A DNA stretch of 64,000 bases from Dillenia suffruticosa (taxonomy: Eukaryota > Streptophyta > Magnoliopsida > Dilleniales > Dilleniaceae). The stretch spans positions 875,501-939,500 of the forward strand of contig JAVTVX010000019.1 of NCBI GenBank assembly GCA_033439265.1, written 5' to 3'. The notes under the pieces were generated by a model. It was not told where the DNA came from, searched no databases, and saw only the letters and a list, made by a program, of their open reading frames with translations. Position numbers and translations under genes: made by a program. This document shows positions 14,351 to 37,196 of this stretch, in pieces (position 1 is the first letter of the stretch; every line of letters starts with the position of its first letter).

Positions 14351-14525
14351 ATCAGAAAATGAAAAAAAATTCAAACCCCAATTGATTCTCAAGACCGAAA
14401 CTTCTGTCAGCCTTAAAAAATTTCCCCAAAAATCATCAACCCCAAAATTTTTTTCCCACTTTATTTCAATTCCTACTCACTATTTAAGCCCAAATTCACA
14501 AATTTTCGGTATACCCAGAAACACC

Positions 14526-17500
14526 ATGAAGCCAAAAATCATATTTTTCTTCATTTTAGTTTGTGCTATAGTGATTTCTTCACAAGCCAACGAACAAGGT
14601 TTCATCTCTGCAGTGATATCTGAAAAGGGTCTTGATTTCATCAAGGAATTGTTAGTGACAAAGGCAATTTCTTCACTCATACCTCTTCAATTGCCCCAAA
14701 TTGAGAGAATTGTGAAAATTCCATTTGTGGGTAACTTACGTGTGGTCTTTTCTAACATTACAATCTACGAAATTAATGTTTCTTCCTCGTATGTCAAACC
14801 TGGGGAGACTGGAATTGCTATTATTGCTTCGGGGACTACATGTAATTTGAGTATGAATTGGTATTACTCATACAGTACTTGGTTCTCTCCTGTTGAGATT
14901 AGTGACAAAGGACGTGCATCAGTTCAGGTATAATTTTTATTTGATCTTGTTGTTAATGGGTTTTATGAATTTTTTTGGTTAATGTTTTATCTATGCCTTC
15001 GTTGGTTTACTTTTTTCTACGTTTGAGTTTTAGATTATGATGTTCTAATTTGAGCTGGTTTATGTTGCGATAATTGTTGGAAGAGATAATTATATAAATG
15101 ACCCTCAACTCTGTAGGAAAGTTCAATTTTAGGGATTAATGTGGTGGCGAGATTTGTTATTTTCATCAAGGATAATTATTTATTTCCTTGTAGAGCTTAA
15201 TCAGTTCGCTAAGCATTACTTTTAAAGAATAAATCTAGCCCCCTGTATTTCTCAACAAAGATTTCTACCATAGATAGTAGGTGTAACAAAAAGGTGAATT
15301 ATTGGGAGACCATATGACTCAAAGACCAAATGGATCGAATCTTACATGGTAGTCCATCTTATTATATTTTGAAAATTTTTTGCTTGATGTTATTTTGATA
15401 AATTCAAAATTACTCTAGGGTGAAAGGTTTAGGTGAAAGGTTTAGGATTTGGTTCATTTGGTGAGACTCATTTGGTCCAGCTAATTAGGGCAAGTAATGT
15501 GGTACATCACTAGTCATTAGTGGCCAAGTTGGTACTGCTACTCTAGAAATGGAAGATGGGGAGCATCGAACCAGAGCAAGTACAAGGACCAGCTTGAACA
15601 TTGCATACAGGTTCAAGGGACATTAGTGTATTTATCCTGGATTGGAAACATAAGATTATTTCCTTAACATATAGCCTAAAGCTTCAATTTTGCTAGCATG
15701 TACTTATTTGCTCATTTAAAGTGTGTTGCTTAAGAAGGGATATTGATGAACGCTGCTTCTGGGTAAGGTTGAAGGCATGCAAGTTGGGCTTACATTGGGG
15801 TTGGAAAACCAAGGAGGAACATTGAAGTTGACCCTTTTTGAATGCGGCTGTTATGTTAAAGATATCTCTATACAGTTGGATGGAGGGGCATCATGGTTTT
15901 ATCAAGGGTATGCAATCCTTTGACCGACTTGATTACATTACAAGGCCATCTTTTATGTTTGTATTCTAGTGCTGCAGTTGGTTTTTGTTTCTCTTTATTG
16001 GTTTTATGATTGATGCAGCAAGAGAAGAAGCTCACCTTGGGAAGGAAAATTAAAAAATCAAAAATCAAAAATCAAAAAAAAAAATGATAGGTGTAAGCTT
16101 ACATTTGCAAGCAAAAAATGTGAATTATCACTTGCAAATGTGATAAAATCCAACAGTCGACATGTAGAATTAACTCTTATTGCAAAGCCAAATGCTTTGT
16201 TATCTCAATATTTCTCCTCATAGTTCGCACCAAATTTTCCCATTACCCACCTACCCACCTTTGCATCTTGCTTCTGCCTGAAGTTTGTGCCATTGAGGAT
16301 ACATTAGCAGCAGGTAAATTTGAAATGAAAAATGCACACCCCTCAGTGTCACATCCATCCATAGTAACAGCATTTTCCTTGTGTATCCCTTCTTTCCTTC
16401 CTGCGACGCTATTTCTTGGGTGATGACATTTCATGAGTTAAGTGGCTTATAGTTACTTAGCAAGGATAGAAAGATCCTCAAATGTTTTTCCATTGATGAA
16501 TTGCAAGATCAACATCTGGCTACTTTAACGCACTGTGCTGATGAGGAATGACATGAACTTCCATTATCACTGTTTCATCTGATACTGTGTCTCTCACATT
16601 TTCAGGATAGTGGACGCTTTTGAAGAGAAGATAGGTGCTGCGGTGGAACATGGCATCACTAAAAAACTTACAGAAGGAATCATAAAACTTGACTCTTTGC
16701 TTCAATCTCTTCCAAAAGAAGTCCCCGTGCATGATGATGCTGCTCTGAATGTCACTTTTGTGAATGACCCTTTTGTCAACAATTCTTCCATTAGCCTTGA
16801 AATCAATGGCTTATTGACGAAAGCTAGAAAAGAAATATATTCAAATTATCATCATAAGCAGCTACTACCTCTTGTATCCTGCAGTGACTCACCTAAGATG
16901 CTTGGAATTTCGTTGGATGAAGCTGTCTTCAACTCTGCCTCATCCTTATACTTCGATGTGAGTCTGAAATCAACATTCAAATCTGATGAAACGTTTAGTA
17001 TAGCTACTGACTATGTGAATAGATTGTAATTGGCACATTAGCTACTCATAATGTCTCTCAAGGTTATTATTAATTATTACATATACCTAATTAGTATTGA
17101 TCCCTGTGGTAAGGCGGACTTTATGCACTTGGTTGTGGATGAACTTCCGGAGCAGTCTCTTCTGAACACGGCTGGGTGGAGATTTATCGTTCCTCAGCTG
17201 TACAGGAAATATCCAAATGATAATATGAATCTTAATATTTCCTTATCATCCCCTCCCGTCATAAAGATATCAGAGAACAAAATTGATGGCACCATATATG
17301 CAGACTTGATAATCGATGTTTTGGAATCCAATCAAGTTATTCCAGTTATATGCATCTCATTGGTATGCTTGCTAATCCCCATCTATAGTTCGCTTCTTTT
17401 TACATGTTCAAAGTTTCACTTTATGCACAAGTCTCCACCCTTTCCTGCTTATTGTTGTTATTCTTCTCTCTCCTGTGTTGTTATAACCATGTCACTGGTC

Positions 17501-18654
17501 TTTTTTCCCCCCTTAAATTAGCATGCATTAATAAGCTGTGATCATTGTGATTTTTCAATATAGTGCAGATGTGATGTTTTCTCAAGAGTGTAGTGTTTCT
17601 GCTTCTATGGCTGCTAACATGCAGCTGCGTATTGTTCTCTAGTAGCTTACATCTTTTCAGTTATTTGTTAAAATTTACAATTAGTCTTTTAAGAAAGCAC
17701 AAAAACCAATATTAGTAAGATGCACAAACTAAATACAAAATGTTCTATGCAGCATCATAAATCATAAACTATGAACAATTACACCTTTGAATGACAGTGG
17801 AACGGCTAAAATGTGCAGGTTTCTTATATGATAACCCAGATAGGGGAATTAGCTCTTGATATCCTCATTATGTTTGTCGCCCTTGTGACTTCATACTGGG
17901 CTTCATTGCCTTTGACTTAATGCTCACTAGTCCATGTGAATCTGTTCCCTTTAATGTTTTGAGCAGGCTCATTCCTTCATTTTCTATTAATGATTTGTGT
18001 CATGGGCTGACAAACCTTGGTTTTGCTGAATATGTTAAAATTTCGCTTGTTTTTGTGCAGGAAATCCAGGGGTCAGGTTCAGTTAAAATTTCAGAGAATA
18101 ACCTTGTTGGAAGCGTTAAATTGAACGACTTCACAATGACCTTGAAGTGGAGCAAAGTTGGGAATCTGCGGATGTTCCTGATTCAGGTTCCTCTGTTTCC
18201 ACTTTTTAAATATTTTTTCACTTTTAGGGTGTTTCAGTTACCATCTCTTCCACTCTTAGGAAACCACAATTTTAGATGTTTCCATTATGTACCACTTGGG
18301 ATTGAAATGGTTTTCTGGGAGAAATTAGCACGAAAAGGGTCATATGCATGCTTTGAAAAAATGGACACTTTTACTTCAAACATTCCGATCACCTGCTGAT
18401 TCTGCTTCTATGGAAAATTGTTTTTGCAGCCAATAATGTGGACGATCATCCAAACTGTGTTCTTGCCATATGCGAACTTACACCTAGAAAAAGGATTCCC
18501 TTTGCCAATAGTTCGCGGTTTTACACTTCAGAATGCTGAAATAATCTGCTCAACTTCTGTAATTACAGTCTGCAGTGACGTGATCTACGAAGAATCCTTA
18601 AATCTTGCTAGGCTTTTATTTTCTCCCAGTAAACACATTCTTGTTACTTCGTAA
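14526..18654 (+). CDS. BPI/LBP-family secreted lipid-binding protein (LBR type)
   Basis: Predicted 497-residue protein from six exons: 14526-14927, 15768-15907, 16606-16957, 17114-17362, 18061-18186 and 18430-18654 (stop TAA). The start is the first ATG in the frame. It begins with a hydrophobic signal peptide (KIIFFFILVCAIVISSQA), so secretion is predicted. The N-terminal lobe (GFISAVISEKGLDFIKELLV, LPQIERIVKIPFVGNLRVVF) and C-terminal lobe (AGWRFIVPQLYRKYPNDNMN, LPLPIVRGFTL-type end) are in family order, and length is close to plant BPI/LBP proteins. Arabidopsis relatives (LBR-1, LBR-2) bind bacterial lipopolysaccharide and promote the defence response to it. From memory one Arabidopsis member lies two loci from TAF6, which fits the neighbourhood here. 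No disruption was seen. Intron 4 (17363-18060) is the least certain. Confidence 0.9.
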
Positions 18655-31521: not shown

Positions 31522-34500
31522 TTATCGAATTGTAGGAGGTGAAGGATCTGTCAGTAATTCAAGGGATTTCCTGAGGAAATCCACGGCCACGGCCACATCA
31601 TCAAATGCCAAAGCCCCTACAGCAATTGCAGCCTTGTGTGCTTCAGCAATCTTTTCCGGAGGTGGCTGATAATTGGGGTCATACTGAAATGGCTGAACTG
31701 GTGTTCGCTTGGGCTCTGTATGACTCTCGTTCCTGCCACCCAGAGTTGCCGATGGATAATCTGGCACAGAAGGAGCGGACTGCTGCGCCAAGTGCTGCAG
31801 ATAGGAAGAATCATGGATGTGGTGATAAGAAGGATAGTGTGAGGGAGCAGTTGGGAGGCTGCTCTCTGAAAAACCTGGATAAGTCTGAAAACTTGGGTAA
31901 GAGTAGGATGGGGAAGAAGTCTCCTGGGAAGGATTATTTGGTTGTACATGCTGCTGGTTATCATGTTGATAAGCTTCTTGGGAAGGATAAATTGGCGGTA
32001 TATGCTGCTGGTTCTCATGTTGAAAAGTTTTTTGACAAGGATAATTTGGTGGTAGGTGCTGCTGGTTTTCAAGTTGATAAGCTTCTTGGGAAGGATAAAT
32101 TGGGGGTATATGCTGCTGGTTTGCTTGTTGATAAGTTTCTTGAGAAGGATAATTTGGTGGTAGGTGCTGCTGATTTTCATGTTGATAAGGATCTTGAGAA
32201 GGATAATTTTGTGGGAAATGCTGTTGGGCATCATGTTGGGAAGGATGATGGCTGTATGGTGCTGAAGAAGTATAATTTTCTCGTGCATTTGCAGGTGGAG
32301 GGGGCTGATAATCATTGGAAGGGACTTAAGCAGTTGGGTATGAGGGTGATCGTGTAAGAGTATTTACAGGTTGGCTATCAAAGTTATCATGGAATGAAGG
32401 CGCTCTATCAGCTCCTGGTCCATGAGGGTTTTCTGGCTTGGCTACAGTCTGCCCAAGATCCTGCAAATGACAAATTCCATAGGACATTTAAAACACCTTA
32501 AAAGAGATGCTCTATAAAATGCAACCACCAGAAGTAAGTGTGCTTCAAATCAGGAAAAGAAAAAAAAGAAAAAACCACATTTTAGCTTTCAATCTTTACA
32601 AGGAACGAGATATTTGCCAGATCAATTCAATTCCCTTGTATCATTGTGGTTCCAAAAACCAATTTGGCTACCAAAATGTAGCAGGGGGAAAAAATAAAGA
32701 AAATGATCATAAATAGCAATAAGTGACCATGACTTCTAAGACAGTTACTCCCAAACTGTGGTTCAAGTGCAGGGTGCGCAGAAATGGTAGTACATAGAAG
32801 TGGCTAGGTAAATGACAGTATGAAATTGCTAATCATTTACTCCTAAACTATTGGTCAAGTTGGTGGGCTGTATGCTGCAGTTTTGTGTTTTTGACCATTC
32901 TGAGCCAAAATCTGATCATGATAATATCCATTTTTAAGTTTGTTTGGAGAAGGGTGCAGCTTCAACAGGTAAAAGAAAGAACATTTTATTACTCCCCTAA
33001 CTGTTTCTCCTTTTAATGGAGGGAAAGGAATTCAAGAATGTAATGGGAAGGAAATGGCCATTGATATTATTTAGATTGTTGAATCAGCGTGTTAAAGCTT
33101 TAGTTTTCTTCTACCTTCTAGACTGACCTATTGTTATTTTATACTTACAAGAAGGCTTGGTACTCCTATAACTAATGCTATCCTTCGCATCTTTATTGAG
33201 GTTCTTTTAATTCTCATACAGAAGAGACTAAAGAATGCAGTCATATTACAGGAGAAAAACCATTGCTCTGATTCTGTCATAATTTCATCCTCAAGAAGGT
33301 CAAAAGCATAAAATTAAAATAATTAATTCATACCAAATACGCAATTTTATTACACACCAGATGAACTCAAAGAAGTGCCGGCTCAAGCATATGAAGTAAG
33401 GAAGATGGAAAAGACAAATACCTTAGACATATCTCAACAATGAGTTGAGAGAAAACTGGCATCAATAGCCAACAGGGTATACTTTCTCCCTGCAATTAGT
33501 TTATCATAGTTCCAAGAACTAAAATGTTGTCTGTGTTAAGCTAATTAAGGAAAAGCTTTGTTACTGTTTCTGTGCTTTTCTGACAATAACTTATCATCCT
33601 CTTACCTTTTCGTAAATTCTTTTTTTTACTAACAAAATCTTCTGTAGTCCCCCCCCCACGAAAAGAGGTTAGTGGTATTAGGTTCAGAAGCATACATATG
33701 CACCACTTGAGGTTCTTGAAGCGATTGATTGATCATCATCATCACCGCCAGGTGGACCAGGTACCGGCTTCCTTCCTTCTTTCAAAGCTTTCCTGATATC
33801 TGCTGCCTTCCATGCAGCATACTTCTGTTTTTGCTCAAGCTGGCATCAAAGAACATATAGAGATGTAGTACAGAAAATAACAATCAAATGCCAAAGGAAA
33901 AGAATAATACGAGGATATTTTTTCCAATTTTTTACTTAGTTCATATCCAAGGCCTTTACACTGGGTATATGGGATAAAAAGAATCCTCAAAAGACAAATA
34001 GCAGTAGTAGAAAGCACAGCAAAGACAGAAATATTAAAGCAGCAATTGGAAGCCAAACTTACATCAGGATGAAATTCACCAAATTGGTTAACAATCTCAT
34101 AGAAAATGCTAGCTGCATAAAATGTTTTTGCAGTATTCCTGTAACAACAGAAAATTTTATTTAACTGGCAAATGTCATGCATTAGACAAATTTAAGCAGA
34201 ACATAATCTTAAAGGTTCACCTCATCACATGCAATAAATTTTTGAGTTGGCTAGCACACATAACATAACTAAACTATATAAGTCGTGGTGGCTTTGGATT
34301 GCTCAAGAGATATGACATTGGATCATTTCTAAGTGGAAAATGTTTGAATTGGCCTTCGAAACATGAATTCTGAATCAACCAACACTTGATTGGACATGCT
34401 TTGAAGCATCCTCCCAATTACCAAATAAAGTGTGTAAAAAAGGTCTTGGTGTCTTGAGTTATTACACCGTACCATTTACAACTCCACTGTATAAAACAAG

Positions 34501-37196
34501 GTCTTGGCTTCTGCAGTTATTTCACTGTACCTTTTACTACACTGGTTTTTGTTCTTCATCTGTAATGTCCATGGATTGAAATTAAAAAAAAAAAAAAATT
34601 CATATAAACACCTAGTTATATATAGGCTATGCTGCATTGTGTTGTTTGTAGGCCTACAAATACAGTGAAATAAAAAATGTGCTCAATGTGCAAGCCAAGA
34701 TGCGTCACTGGTGTCATGGAATAAAACATTTTATCCTATAAGAGATAGTTGCATTACAAGTCAGCATGGCCAGCACGGTCTTGCTTATCTGCCTTGGCAA
34801 AGACATTCGAGGCAAATCCTTCCACATACAAACTGTCTTCTGGTCCTAACTTCAATGACTTCTTGTCCTGTAGCAACCAAAGCAATCAAAAATGGAAATG
34901 TTAGAAAGAGAACCATATAGAGGGAGAAAACTCAAGCCTAACCTTGCTTTGCAGGTTGATACTTCTCTAAGGAAAAGACACAACTCCAAAGAAAATAAGC
35001 ATGTGGAAGGAAAGGTAGAACAAAGCTAAAAGAATAGTAACAAGTAGGTGCAATTGCCAACATAGACAGCCAGGATCAACAAAATTTTGGGAATAACATG
35101 CCTAACTGTCTAACTTCTTCAAGAAAAAATTAGGGGAGAACAATGCTTATAGCAATATATCTATCTGGATAAACTTGCTCTCAATTGAACATTACAACAT
35201 AATCCAAGGGGTTGTGATGTACACTCCGAGCTATAACAATATAGTATTAGATTTGGCAAGCATTACAATGGCATCTCTTGAAATAGAAATAAATAATTAA
35301 TAAGGCCTATTGGAAATAGGAGAAAATTAATAAAGTCCTCCAGAGAATATGAATAGGAGTCCTAGGAACTATACATCATATTTAATATCTTGGAGATGCT
35401 TCTCCTTGATATGTATAAATATAAGTGTGCTGGGTGTGTTGAAGCATGTCACCATGTAACCACTCAAATCAATTGAATCATAACAATATTGTTTCTCCTC
35501 CAGTCTCAACATGGTATCATCGCTCATAAGCAATTAACTAAACATTACCCAAGTTTTTCTCAAATTCTTTAACATGGTATTAGAGCTTTTCACCCTCCGG
35601 CCAGTCTCCAGAAGGCTCAATCACATCTTCCTCTAATTTGTTGCAAGTCGGTCCCAAGCCAGTCGAGTCCAGTTAAACTCAAGTCGTTGCTCATCGTCCT
35701 TTCTACAGTCAAGCTTATCTGCCCTCTGGTCTGGCAGGAGCTTCCATTGGACTGCGAACTGGTCAAGCAGTTTCCGATATCTCTATCAAGTTTCTTCTGC
35801 CAACTCGGCAGAAGCTTCAAAATTCTTTAAAAAAAAAAAAAAAAAAGAAGAATCATCAGTCTTCTTAGTCATCTCTGTAGTTTTGTTCAGTATCTCTGCA
35901 CCATTGTCCAGCATCTCAGCAAAACACTTCAGCAATTTCTTGTCATCTCCAGCAACGAAACTTCATTAAAACCTTGCAGCATTGTCACACTCCATCAATC
36001 TTCAGCAGTACCAAAAACTTCCAAAACTCCTTGTATATCCTGAGTCAACATGGTTATCCCTACAATATCTTGTCAATCCTGCAGAAAATTCAGCATCTAG
36101 TCCAGGTTAATCTAACTCACCTTCTAAAGCTTCAGGTTGTCATATTTCAGATTGTTTTTTTAGTATTGGAATTGTCTTCATGTGTGTCACTAAGGATTCG
36201 CCTTCTCCCGTCTTTATCAAACTTTCACAGGCAGAATATGAAGAGTATCTTCAATAAGGGCAGCCGCTGTTCTTCCTCAAAATGTCTATAAGTCAATGTG
36301 TTTGTAACAAGCTTGGTGCATATTATCCATATGCTTCAGCTTGGGGGGGGGGGGTGTTGGAAATAGCAATAACTAATTAATAGGGTATATTAGAAATAGA
36401 AGAAAATTAATAAAGTCCTCTAGGGAACACGAGTCTTAGGAACTATGCATTATATTTATTATCTTGAAAATGCTTCTCCTTGATATGTATAATTATGAGA
36501 GTGCCGGGTGTGTTGAAGCATTTCACTATGTAACCATTCAAATCAATTGAGTCTTAATGACATTGTTTCTCCTCCATTCTCAACAAGGTATCACAGCTCA
36601 TAAGCAATTAACTAAAAATTTCCCAATTTTATTCTCAAGTTCTTCAACATCCTTGAAATTCAGGTATTGAGATTACTCAGGGCAAGGTAACACGCGCCAA
36701 AGACAGATATAAGCATAAATCACATAGACCCAGAACTTAATCTAGCCTTAAAATGAGAAACAAAGACTAGATTCCAATCTCAAACTGGTACAAGACCCCA
36801 ACTCTAGAAATGCTATCAGCTATTATAGTCACATAGGCAACCCTGATCAGCTCCACAAAACTTCAATTGTAAACAAAAAATTCAAGCATCAACAAAACAC
36901 TATCAATGACTGAAGAACAGAAAAAACCTGACCTTTTCAAGCTGATTCATGAGAGAAATAAGGAGAGAATTCGTGGTTTTGGTTCGTTCCTTATTAGAAA
37001 TCTTCAGTCCTCGCTCCATAGCATATAATCGACCTGAAATTGTCAACAGTCACAATAATCGCAAACCGAGAATAACTTCAATTTCTAGAGAGAAAGAGAT
37101 ACAGTAGTAAGCGACGAGAGGTTCGTGTTTCTGCAACTCATCAGCTCTTTGAAGGTATGGTAATAGAAGCTTTGCCGGCTCTGATTCGCTTCCCAT
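31522..37196 (-). CDS. LIP5: LIP5/VTA1, ESCRT-associated activator of SKD1/VPS4, with in-frame stop
   Basis: Six exons: 37103-37196, 36933-37033, 34758-34867, 34063-34138, 33696-33839 and 31522-32460 (stop TAA at 31522). The start is MGSESEPAKLLLPYLQRADE. LIP5 binds and stimulates the SKD1/VPS4 ATPase for multivesicular body sorting. Residues 1-165 hold the tandem MIT-like N-terminus (LEQKQKYAAWKAADIRKALK at its end). The C-terminal Vta1 domain (EKIAEAHKAAIAVGALAFDD) closes the protein. Read through, it would have 487 residues. A TAA at 32326-32328 lies in frame at codon 220, so a plain reading gives 219 residues and loses the ATPase-activating end. The stop lies within a 63-nt segment (32305-32367) that begins GTAAAT and ends TATCAG. 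The middle of exon 6 is a 54-nt coding repeat. Intron 2 holds a TRIM. It could be a functional gene with an exitron, a recent null allele, or a sequence error. Confidence 0.85.
31925..32244 (-). repeat. 54-nt coding minisatellite in LIP5 exon 6
   Basis: About six units of 54 nt. The word TG(G/A)(G/C)AAGG recurs at 31925, 31979, 32033, 32087, 32141, 32195 and (spaced 42) 32237. In the LIP5 frame each unit encodes about 18 residues of the form NYPSQxxYQxxNQQHxPP. Because 54 is a multiple of three and the unit lacks stops in other frames, long spurious frames exist on both strands. Confidence 0.93.
32461..33695. other. LIP5 intron 5
   Basis: An intron of about 1.2 kb; nothing recognisable beyond simple A/C runs (C-run near 33649). 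Confidence 0.6.
34441..34560. repeat. Approximate tandem duplication in LIP5 intron 3
   Basis: AAGGTCTTGGTGTCTTGAG..ACCGTACCATTTAC and AAGGTCTTGGCTTCTGCAG..ACTGTACCTTTTAC are about 59 bp apart. They look like a diverged local duplication. Confidence 0.55.
35276..36652 (+). mobile_element. TRIM (terminal-repeat retrotransposon in miniature) in LIP5 intron 2
   Basis: Direct terminal repeats at 35276-35511 and 36355-36585 bracket a non-coding interior of about 0.84 kb. The left repeat ends CAACA and is followed at once by TGGTATCATCGCTC, matching the initiator-Met tRNA primer site (usually TGGTATCAGAGC). A G-run (36343-36354) just before the right repeat serves as the polypurine tract. After the right repeat the sequence continues with a copy of the primer site and the start of the interior (36586 to about 36652), so the insertion ends in a partial second unit. 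Confidence 0.8.

Follow-up and report, generated by a model that had tools for sequence, protein, structure and literature searches.

A premature stop codon in the last exon of a Dillenia LIP5 gene: probable recent nonsense mutation of a redundant copy

Introduction

LIP5/VTA1 proteins are activators of the ATPase VPS4/SKD1 and combine a Vta1 domain, a Pro/Gln/Tyr-rich linker and a C-terminal VSL region. A review (PMC12051064) assigns the binding of IST1, CHMP1 and VPS60 to the N-terminal MIT domains, and both dimerisation and the binding of VPS4 to the VSL. The 64-kb stretch of DNA analysed here (the window) has a G+C content of 29-44% per 2 kb, reads as plant DNA and appears to be nuclear. 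It contains a LIP5 gene with an in-frame TAA in its last exon, and this stop lies inside a 63-nt segment that begins with GT and ends with AG. Is the stop removed by splicing, or is the gene losing its function? An earlier note, made on this DNA alone, considered either a very short intron or exitron that switches between a full-length activator and a truncated N-terminal protein, or a recent null allele. We compared the gene with its relatives to weigh these readings.

Results

The LIP5/VTA1 gene, as rebuilt from the sequence, lies on the minus strand between 37196 and 31522 and consists of six exons with a joined coding sequence of 1464 nt. Exon 1 (37103-37196, start codon at 37196), whose protein matches relatives, is followed by exon 2 (36933-37033), exon 3 (34758-34867), exon 4 (34063-34138), exon 5 (33696-33839) and exon 6 (31522-32460). 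All five introns (5/5) are of the GT...AG type, intron 1 measuring just 69 nt. Exons 1-5 encode the Vta1 (MIT-type) domain PF04652 (residues 12-148, 160 bits for a cut-off of 26.8). The linker, the premature stop, a repeat array, the Vta1_C/VSL region and the natural stop (codon 488) are all found in exon 6.

The rebuilt coding sequence confirmed the in-frame TAA at 32328-32326 as codon 220. Exon 6 runs for 135 nt up to and including this stop (32326-32328, minus strand), and 804 nt of the old frame remain behind it. Downstream, the frame stays open, as the earlier note had described, although the 268 open codons that it counted are 267 sense codons and the natural stop. Its placement of the Vta1 domain after the stop did not hold: PF04652 sits intact before the TAA, and what comes after is the linker and PF18097 (Vta1_C/VSL), which scores 22-23 bits when the stop is read through, below its cut-off of 26.3. 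The 63-nt segment (32305-32367, minus strand) was exact to the base, starting with GTAAAT, ending with TATCAG and holding the stop, and its excision would drop the stop and preserve the frame. No second stop or frameshift was found in the 267 codons past the TAA in the rebuilt coding sequence, which counts against a gene in decay. Judged by its domains, this DNA is a LIP5 gene; the product read straight from it would lack the VSL and would not be a full LIP5.

Several further features were seen in and around the gene. A tandem array (31928-32238, minus strand) continues the reading frame of exon 6 with about 5.8 copies of a 54-nt unit and a 108-nt higher-order period; by eye, most of ten aligned relatives have roughly one copy, and P0027 and P0006 have more. 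Exon 6 is also overlapped by two more long open frames, one of 250 aa on the plus strand (31605-32357) and one of 232 aa in another frame of the minus strand (31617-32315), perhaps a by-product of the stop-free array. Intron 2 holds a pair of direct repeats, each about 297 nt long (35280-35575 and 36360-36650; 85% identical, 1080 nt apart), and a third copy was absent from the 64-kb window. Exons of an LBP/BPI/CETP family gene are located at 14382-17521 on the plus strand (N-terminal domain, 14382-14933; C-terminal domain, 17051-17521).

A search with the whole protein returned 511 relatives. The best matches were named HOMOLOG OF MAMMALIAN LYST-INTERACTING PROTEIN 5, and the best four came from Telopea and Macadamia (58-70% identity over 55-99% of the length). 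Searching with the first 219 residues gave 145 relatives, and the best 120 of these included P0156, a Dillenia turbinata gene model of 235 aa that was the nearest relative found (90% identity over 53% of the query). Between residues 103 and 296, P0156 and the LIP5 gene are identical at 171 of 193 positions and differ at 22, and P0156 has in addition a Gln at the stop. The two were paired in a tree with a support of 1.0, their deeper placement having a support of only 0.03. Papaver had appeared as the nearest relative in a tree of 39 sequences (support 0.98) from which P0156 was absent; this placement was abandoned once P0156 was included and the gene paired with Dillenia at 1.0. Without P0156, the Papaver pairing had a support of 0.79 with all columns, 0.72 with columns before the stop and 0.06 with columns after it.

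P0156 matches exons 4-6 of the LIP5 gene and also a reading frame within intron 3 (37 of 41 residues). This intron-3 frame (34353-34475, minus strand, 41 residues) and the annotated start of P0156 share 90% identity; the latter is probably intron sequence absorbed into the gene model. P0156 is incomplete: it begins inside intron 3 and, with residue 296, breaks off in the middle of the linker; the LIP5 gene continues there with a Tyr codon (TAT). This end could reflect a stop of its own or a poor model. With 171 of 193 residues shared and a similar intron-3 frame, P0156 resembles the same or a very close copy; it is unlike the LIP5 gene in the Gln at the stop and in where the model starts and ends. 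Dillenia turbinata also has a full-length LIP5 (P0070, 479 aa) with an intact AARFAVGALAF motif and a third model, P0147, of 213 aa; a different longest contig is given for each of the three. No protein identical to the LIP5 gene product occurred among the matches listed, for which C-terminal fragments of fewer than 268 residues fell outside the length limits. Within the 64-kb window, tblastn with both halves of the protein returned only the gene's own exons and no second LIP5.

Alignment with these relatives bore directly on the nature of the 63-nt segment. P0156 reads VNTLTRSPSYPTAQVPSNDYQ at this place, and the LIP5 gene reads VNTLTRSPSYPTA, the stop and then VPSNDYQ, that is, the same 21 residues except for Gln at the stop. 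A single C-to-T change converts the Gln codon CAA, which the P0156 gene may use here, into TAA. In the conservation set, the stop column is occupied by a residue in 118 of 120 relatives, and the remaining columns of the segment in 95-120 of 120. On this alignment, the segment is ancestral coding sequence. An inherited short intron was ruled out, because the relatives and P0156 encode protein across the segment. The exitron was ruled out as well: exitrons are by definition free of stop codons (PMC4484396, from an excerpt), and this segment contains a TAA, even though it resembles exitrons in being a GT...AG segment of a protein-coding exon with a length that is a multiple of three. Since exitrons hold no stops, splicing of 32367-32305 would be intronization. 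The null allele, the other reading of the earlier note, fitted best.

We then considered whether the segment looks like an intron. Its donor, CCT/GTAAAT, agrees with the consensus at 6 of 9 positions (4-7 in the gene's own five introns), and its acceptor has 7 pyrimidines out of 12 (7-9 in the same introns). Weak splice signals had been taken as a case against splicing, an argument that we dropped because the gene's own introns are no better. Frame-preserving GT...AG brackets are common in this exon: 104 of 312 exon-6 codons lie inside one of 60-66 nt and 220 of 312 inside one of 60-150 nt. When a donor as good as that of the segment is required, these counts become 21/312 (the codon number of the segment itself) and 86/312. 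Exon-6 codons were also permuted round the fixed stop, with thresholds chosen after the segment had been seen. Any frame-preserving bracket of 60-66 nt was obtained in 528 of 2000 shuffles; when its sites had to be equally good, the count was 18/2000 (60-66 nt), 76/2000 (60-90 nt) and 253/2000 (60-150 nt). The A+T content of the segment (59%) is between that of exon 6 (54%) and that of the introns (63-67%), and 275 of 877 exon-6 windows are equally A+T rich.

The open frame downstream of the TAA argues that the stop is young. In a neutral simulation of substitutions alone, the 267-codon frame stayed open with a frequency of 0.69, 0.48 and 0.17 at 0.01, 0.02 and 0.05 substitutions per site, and adding an assumed indel rate lowered these values to 0.36, 0.14 and 0.005. 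If P0156 and the LIP5 gene are the same copy, the Gln in P0156 indicates that the stop is younger than their split.

Divergence was compared on both sides of the stop using the best 120 of the 511 whole-protein matches, a set that includes P0063, which has no N-terminus and is an outlier for the first half. Where a residue is conserved in 80% or more of these relatives, the LIP5 gene has 6 departures in 143 columns upstream of the stop (45/120 relatives have as many) and 20 in 88 columns downstream of it (0/120); the relatives with the most downstream departures are Musa (19), Kingdonia (18) and Salix viminalis (18). Taken separately, the linker after the stop (16/49; 1/120 relatives as high) and the VSL (4/39; 3/120) are less extreme, which counts against the contrast, and the excess after the stop shrinks with stricter columns (7/53 at 90%, 0/120 relatives; 3/43 at 95%, 8/120; 2/26 at 99%, 1/120). 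Over all columns, the branch is the 8th longest of 121 before the stop and the 2nd of 121 after it. A Fisher test of 6/143 versus 20/88 gives p = 2.5e-5, a value that overstates the contrast because divergence past the stop is greater among the relatives as well.

A relative-rate test was run against Papaver. With nine outgroup proteins, and skipping columns with fewer than 5 outgroup letters or less than 60% agreement, changes found in the LIP5 gene only versus Papaver only were 11 to 16 before the stop and 24 to 10 after it; the latter divide into 21 to 7 in the linker and 3 to 3 in the VSL. At 80% agreement, 7 changes of the LIP5 gene stood against 11 of Papaver before the stop, and 10 against 3 after it (Fisher p = 0.036 reported for the test). 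We read this result as showing only that the linker is fast in the whole lineage of the LIP5 gene, and the linker alignment is uncertain. P0156 covers five of the after-stop departures, of which four are common to both Dillenia sequences and only the one at residue 240 is private to the LIP5 gene; the four common departures are therefore older than the stop. By this comparison, the fast linker is a trait of the lineage of this copy and, in the part that P0156 covers, mostly predates the stop.

Differences between P0156 and the LIP5 gene amount to 6/73 in exons 4-5, 6/44 in exon 6 before the stop, 10/76 after it and 4/41 in the intron-3 frame. That the exons (22/193) differ no less than the intron frame (4/41) hints at neutral drift. 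The stronger argument, that exons as fast as an intron must be neutral, was not upheld: the Vta1 part differs at 3 of 48 positions, which is ordinary among 49 control pairs with a like linker divergence, 9 of which show at least 3. Val at codon 221, next to the stop, was likewise withdrawn as a sign of local damage, being common to P0156. Units of the 54-nt array differ from one another at 10-43% of synonymous and 9-18% of other sites (ten non-independent pairs); they thus diverged under translation, which counts against decay.

The VSL region (residues 440-487; 31522-31668 with the natural stop, minus strand) is altered at a site that is invariant elsewhere. The AARFAVG of relatives is AA-IAVG here, so that an Arg and a Phe present in 120/120 relatives are, respectively, lost and replaced by Ile. 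The altered Phe aligns with residue 303 of yeast Vta1 and the next Phe with residue 310 (chain 5uie_H, residues 292-328). VPS4/SKD1 is bound through aromatic residues at these two positions (Tyr-303 and Tyr-310 in yeast; F388 and F395 in Arabidopsis), of which the first is thus Ile in the LIP5 gene and the second is Phe, as in relatives. Solved Vta1 chains were found by the Papaver VSL at E 0.0005 and by the VSL of this gene at E 0.11. In yeast two-hybrid assays with the Arabidopsis protein (PMC4092137), F388A bound SKD1 weakly and F395A showed no detectable binding; overexpressed F388A nevertheless complemented the disease resistance of lip5-1, a result that counts against decay. P0156 ends before the VSL, and this change may be older or younger than the stop.

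Discussion

Collectively, these data make it probable that the TAA arose recently, as a nonsense mutation in one of several LIP5 copies, which is redundant and is losing its function. The null-allele reading gained weight, and intronization lost it, through P0156 and the full-length Dillenia turbinata copy. A Gln codon at position 220 would have become TAA in the last exon of one among several LIP5 copies, the linker of this copy having by then already drifted, as far as P0156 allows a check. Several copies were seen in Dillenia turbinata only, and we infer the same for the plant of the window. The mRNA would then be translated into 219 residues that keep the MIT domains and could bind ESCRT-III subunits. 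Devoid of the VSL, this form would neither dimerise nor bind or stimulate SKD1 and would be null for SKD1 activation. The truncation would be tolerated as another LIP5 copy works. Since the stop is located in the last exon, 135 nt in, mRNA decay via a downstream junction is not expected. A long 3' part after a stop may itself trigger mRNA decay.

The consequences of losing LIP5 differ between plants. Near-normal growth is described for Arabidopsis lip5 mutants (PMC4092137), and death before flowering for rice oslip5 mutants (PMC9887185). LIP5 loss is therefore not always harmless, which speaks against decay, and given the rice phenotype any tolerance here would most likely come from another copy, as in Dillenia turbinata. 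The gene resembles nonsense alleles and young pseudogenes in having a single nonsense lesion, an otherwise complete gene and a full-length copy in a close relative; it is unlike them in showing no other frame lesion. Among the titles and beginnings of abstracts listed, we found no report of a natural nonsense LIP5. The same gene resembles LIP5/VTA1 in its Vta1 domain, linker and C-terminal VSL, and departs from it by the in-frame stop before the VSL, the altered Arg-Phe and the expanded 54-nt array.

Three other explanations were weighed. That the stop is an assembly or sequencing error, the plant having a sense codon at 32326-32328, is unlikely, although one wrong base would suffice to turn a Gln codon into TAA, P0156 has Gln there and the frame is open on both sides. 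The Val at codon 221 does not argue against an error, as P0156 has Val too; what does is that an invariant VSL site has also changed and that the nearest relative is an incomplete model, so that decay would be no surprise. It is more doubtful still that the 63-nt segment is now an intron, a nonsense codon having arisen between latent splice sites so that splicing yields a LIP5 of 466 residues. The donor and acceptor scores within the range of the gene's own introns and the open frame past the segment are consistent with this, as is the scarcity of equally good 60-66 nt brackets among the codon shuffles; the Val-Asn and Tyr-Gln residues at the splice sites are the same in the stop-free P0156, so these sites could predate the stop. 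Yet the GT lies in the Val codon and the AG in the Gln codon, residues that P0156 shares, and splicing is not needed to explain either. The intermediate composition, the frequency of equally good brackets when lengths up to 150 nt are allowed and the retention of the segment as coding in the P0156 model also weigh against splicing, and the VSL that it would rescue is itself altered.

Partial splicing is harder still to credit. It would require that the sites came first and that Gln then became TAA between them, with intronization under way giving a full-length form and an ESCRT-III-binding form that lacks the part activating SKD1; of all the possibilities considered here we regard it as the faintest. 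The altered SKD1-binding site in the VSL helix past the stop weakens the idea of a switch to a working activator, although overexpressed F388A still complemented in Arabidopsis. Intronization via a premature stop is named in a 2012 review (PMC3443670) as a proposed route for which evidence is lacking. The segment resembles that scheme in being exonic in relatives, with putative flanking splice sites and an in-frame stop between them, and differs from it in that splicing is here a candidate from the sequence alone. A useful 219-residue protein, under selection as an ESCRT-III-binding and SKD1-blind form, is likewise improbable, a shade less so than partial splicing. Such a form would suit the division of roles between the MIT domains and the VSL and the conserved columns before the stop, kept as in relatives, and, as we read the match table, PF04652 occurs without PF18097 in roughly half of the best 120 of the 145 N-terminal matches. 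The 12 PF04652-only proteins inspected, however, looked mostly like partial or mis-spliced models, and a young stop alone would give the same picture with no new function.

If the segment were spliced, this locus would provide a rare view of the birth of an intron from an exonic stop, with a close stop-free relative for comparison, and true intronization would make it a natural case of the stop-first route that the excerpt of PMC3443670 lists without evidence. If a redundant copy has simply acquired a nonsense mutation, the explanation that we consider probable, this would be ordinary decay after duplication, and the gene would then be mainly an example of this process in the Dillenia lineage.
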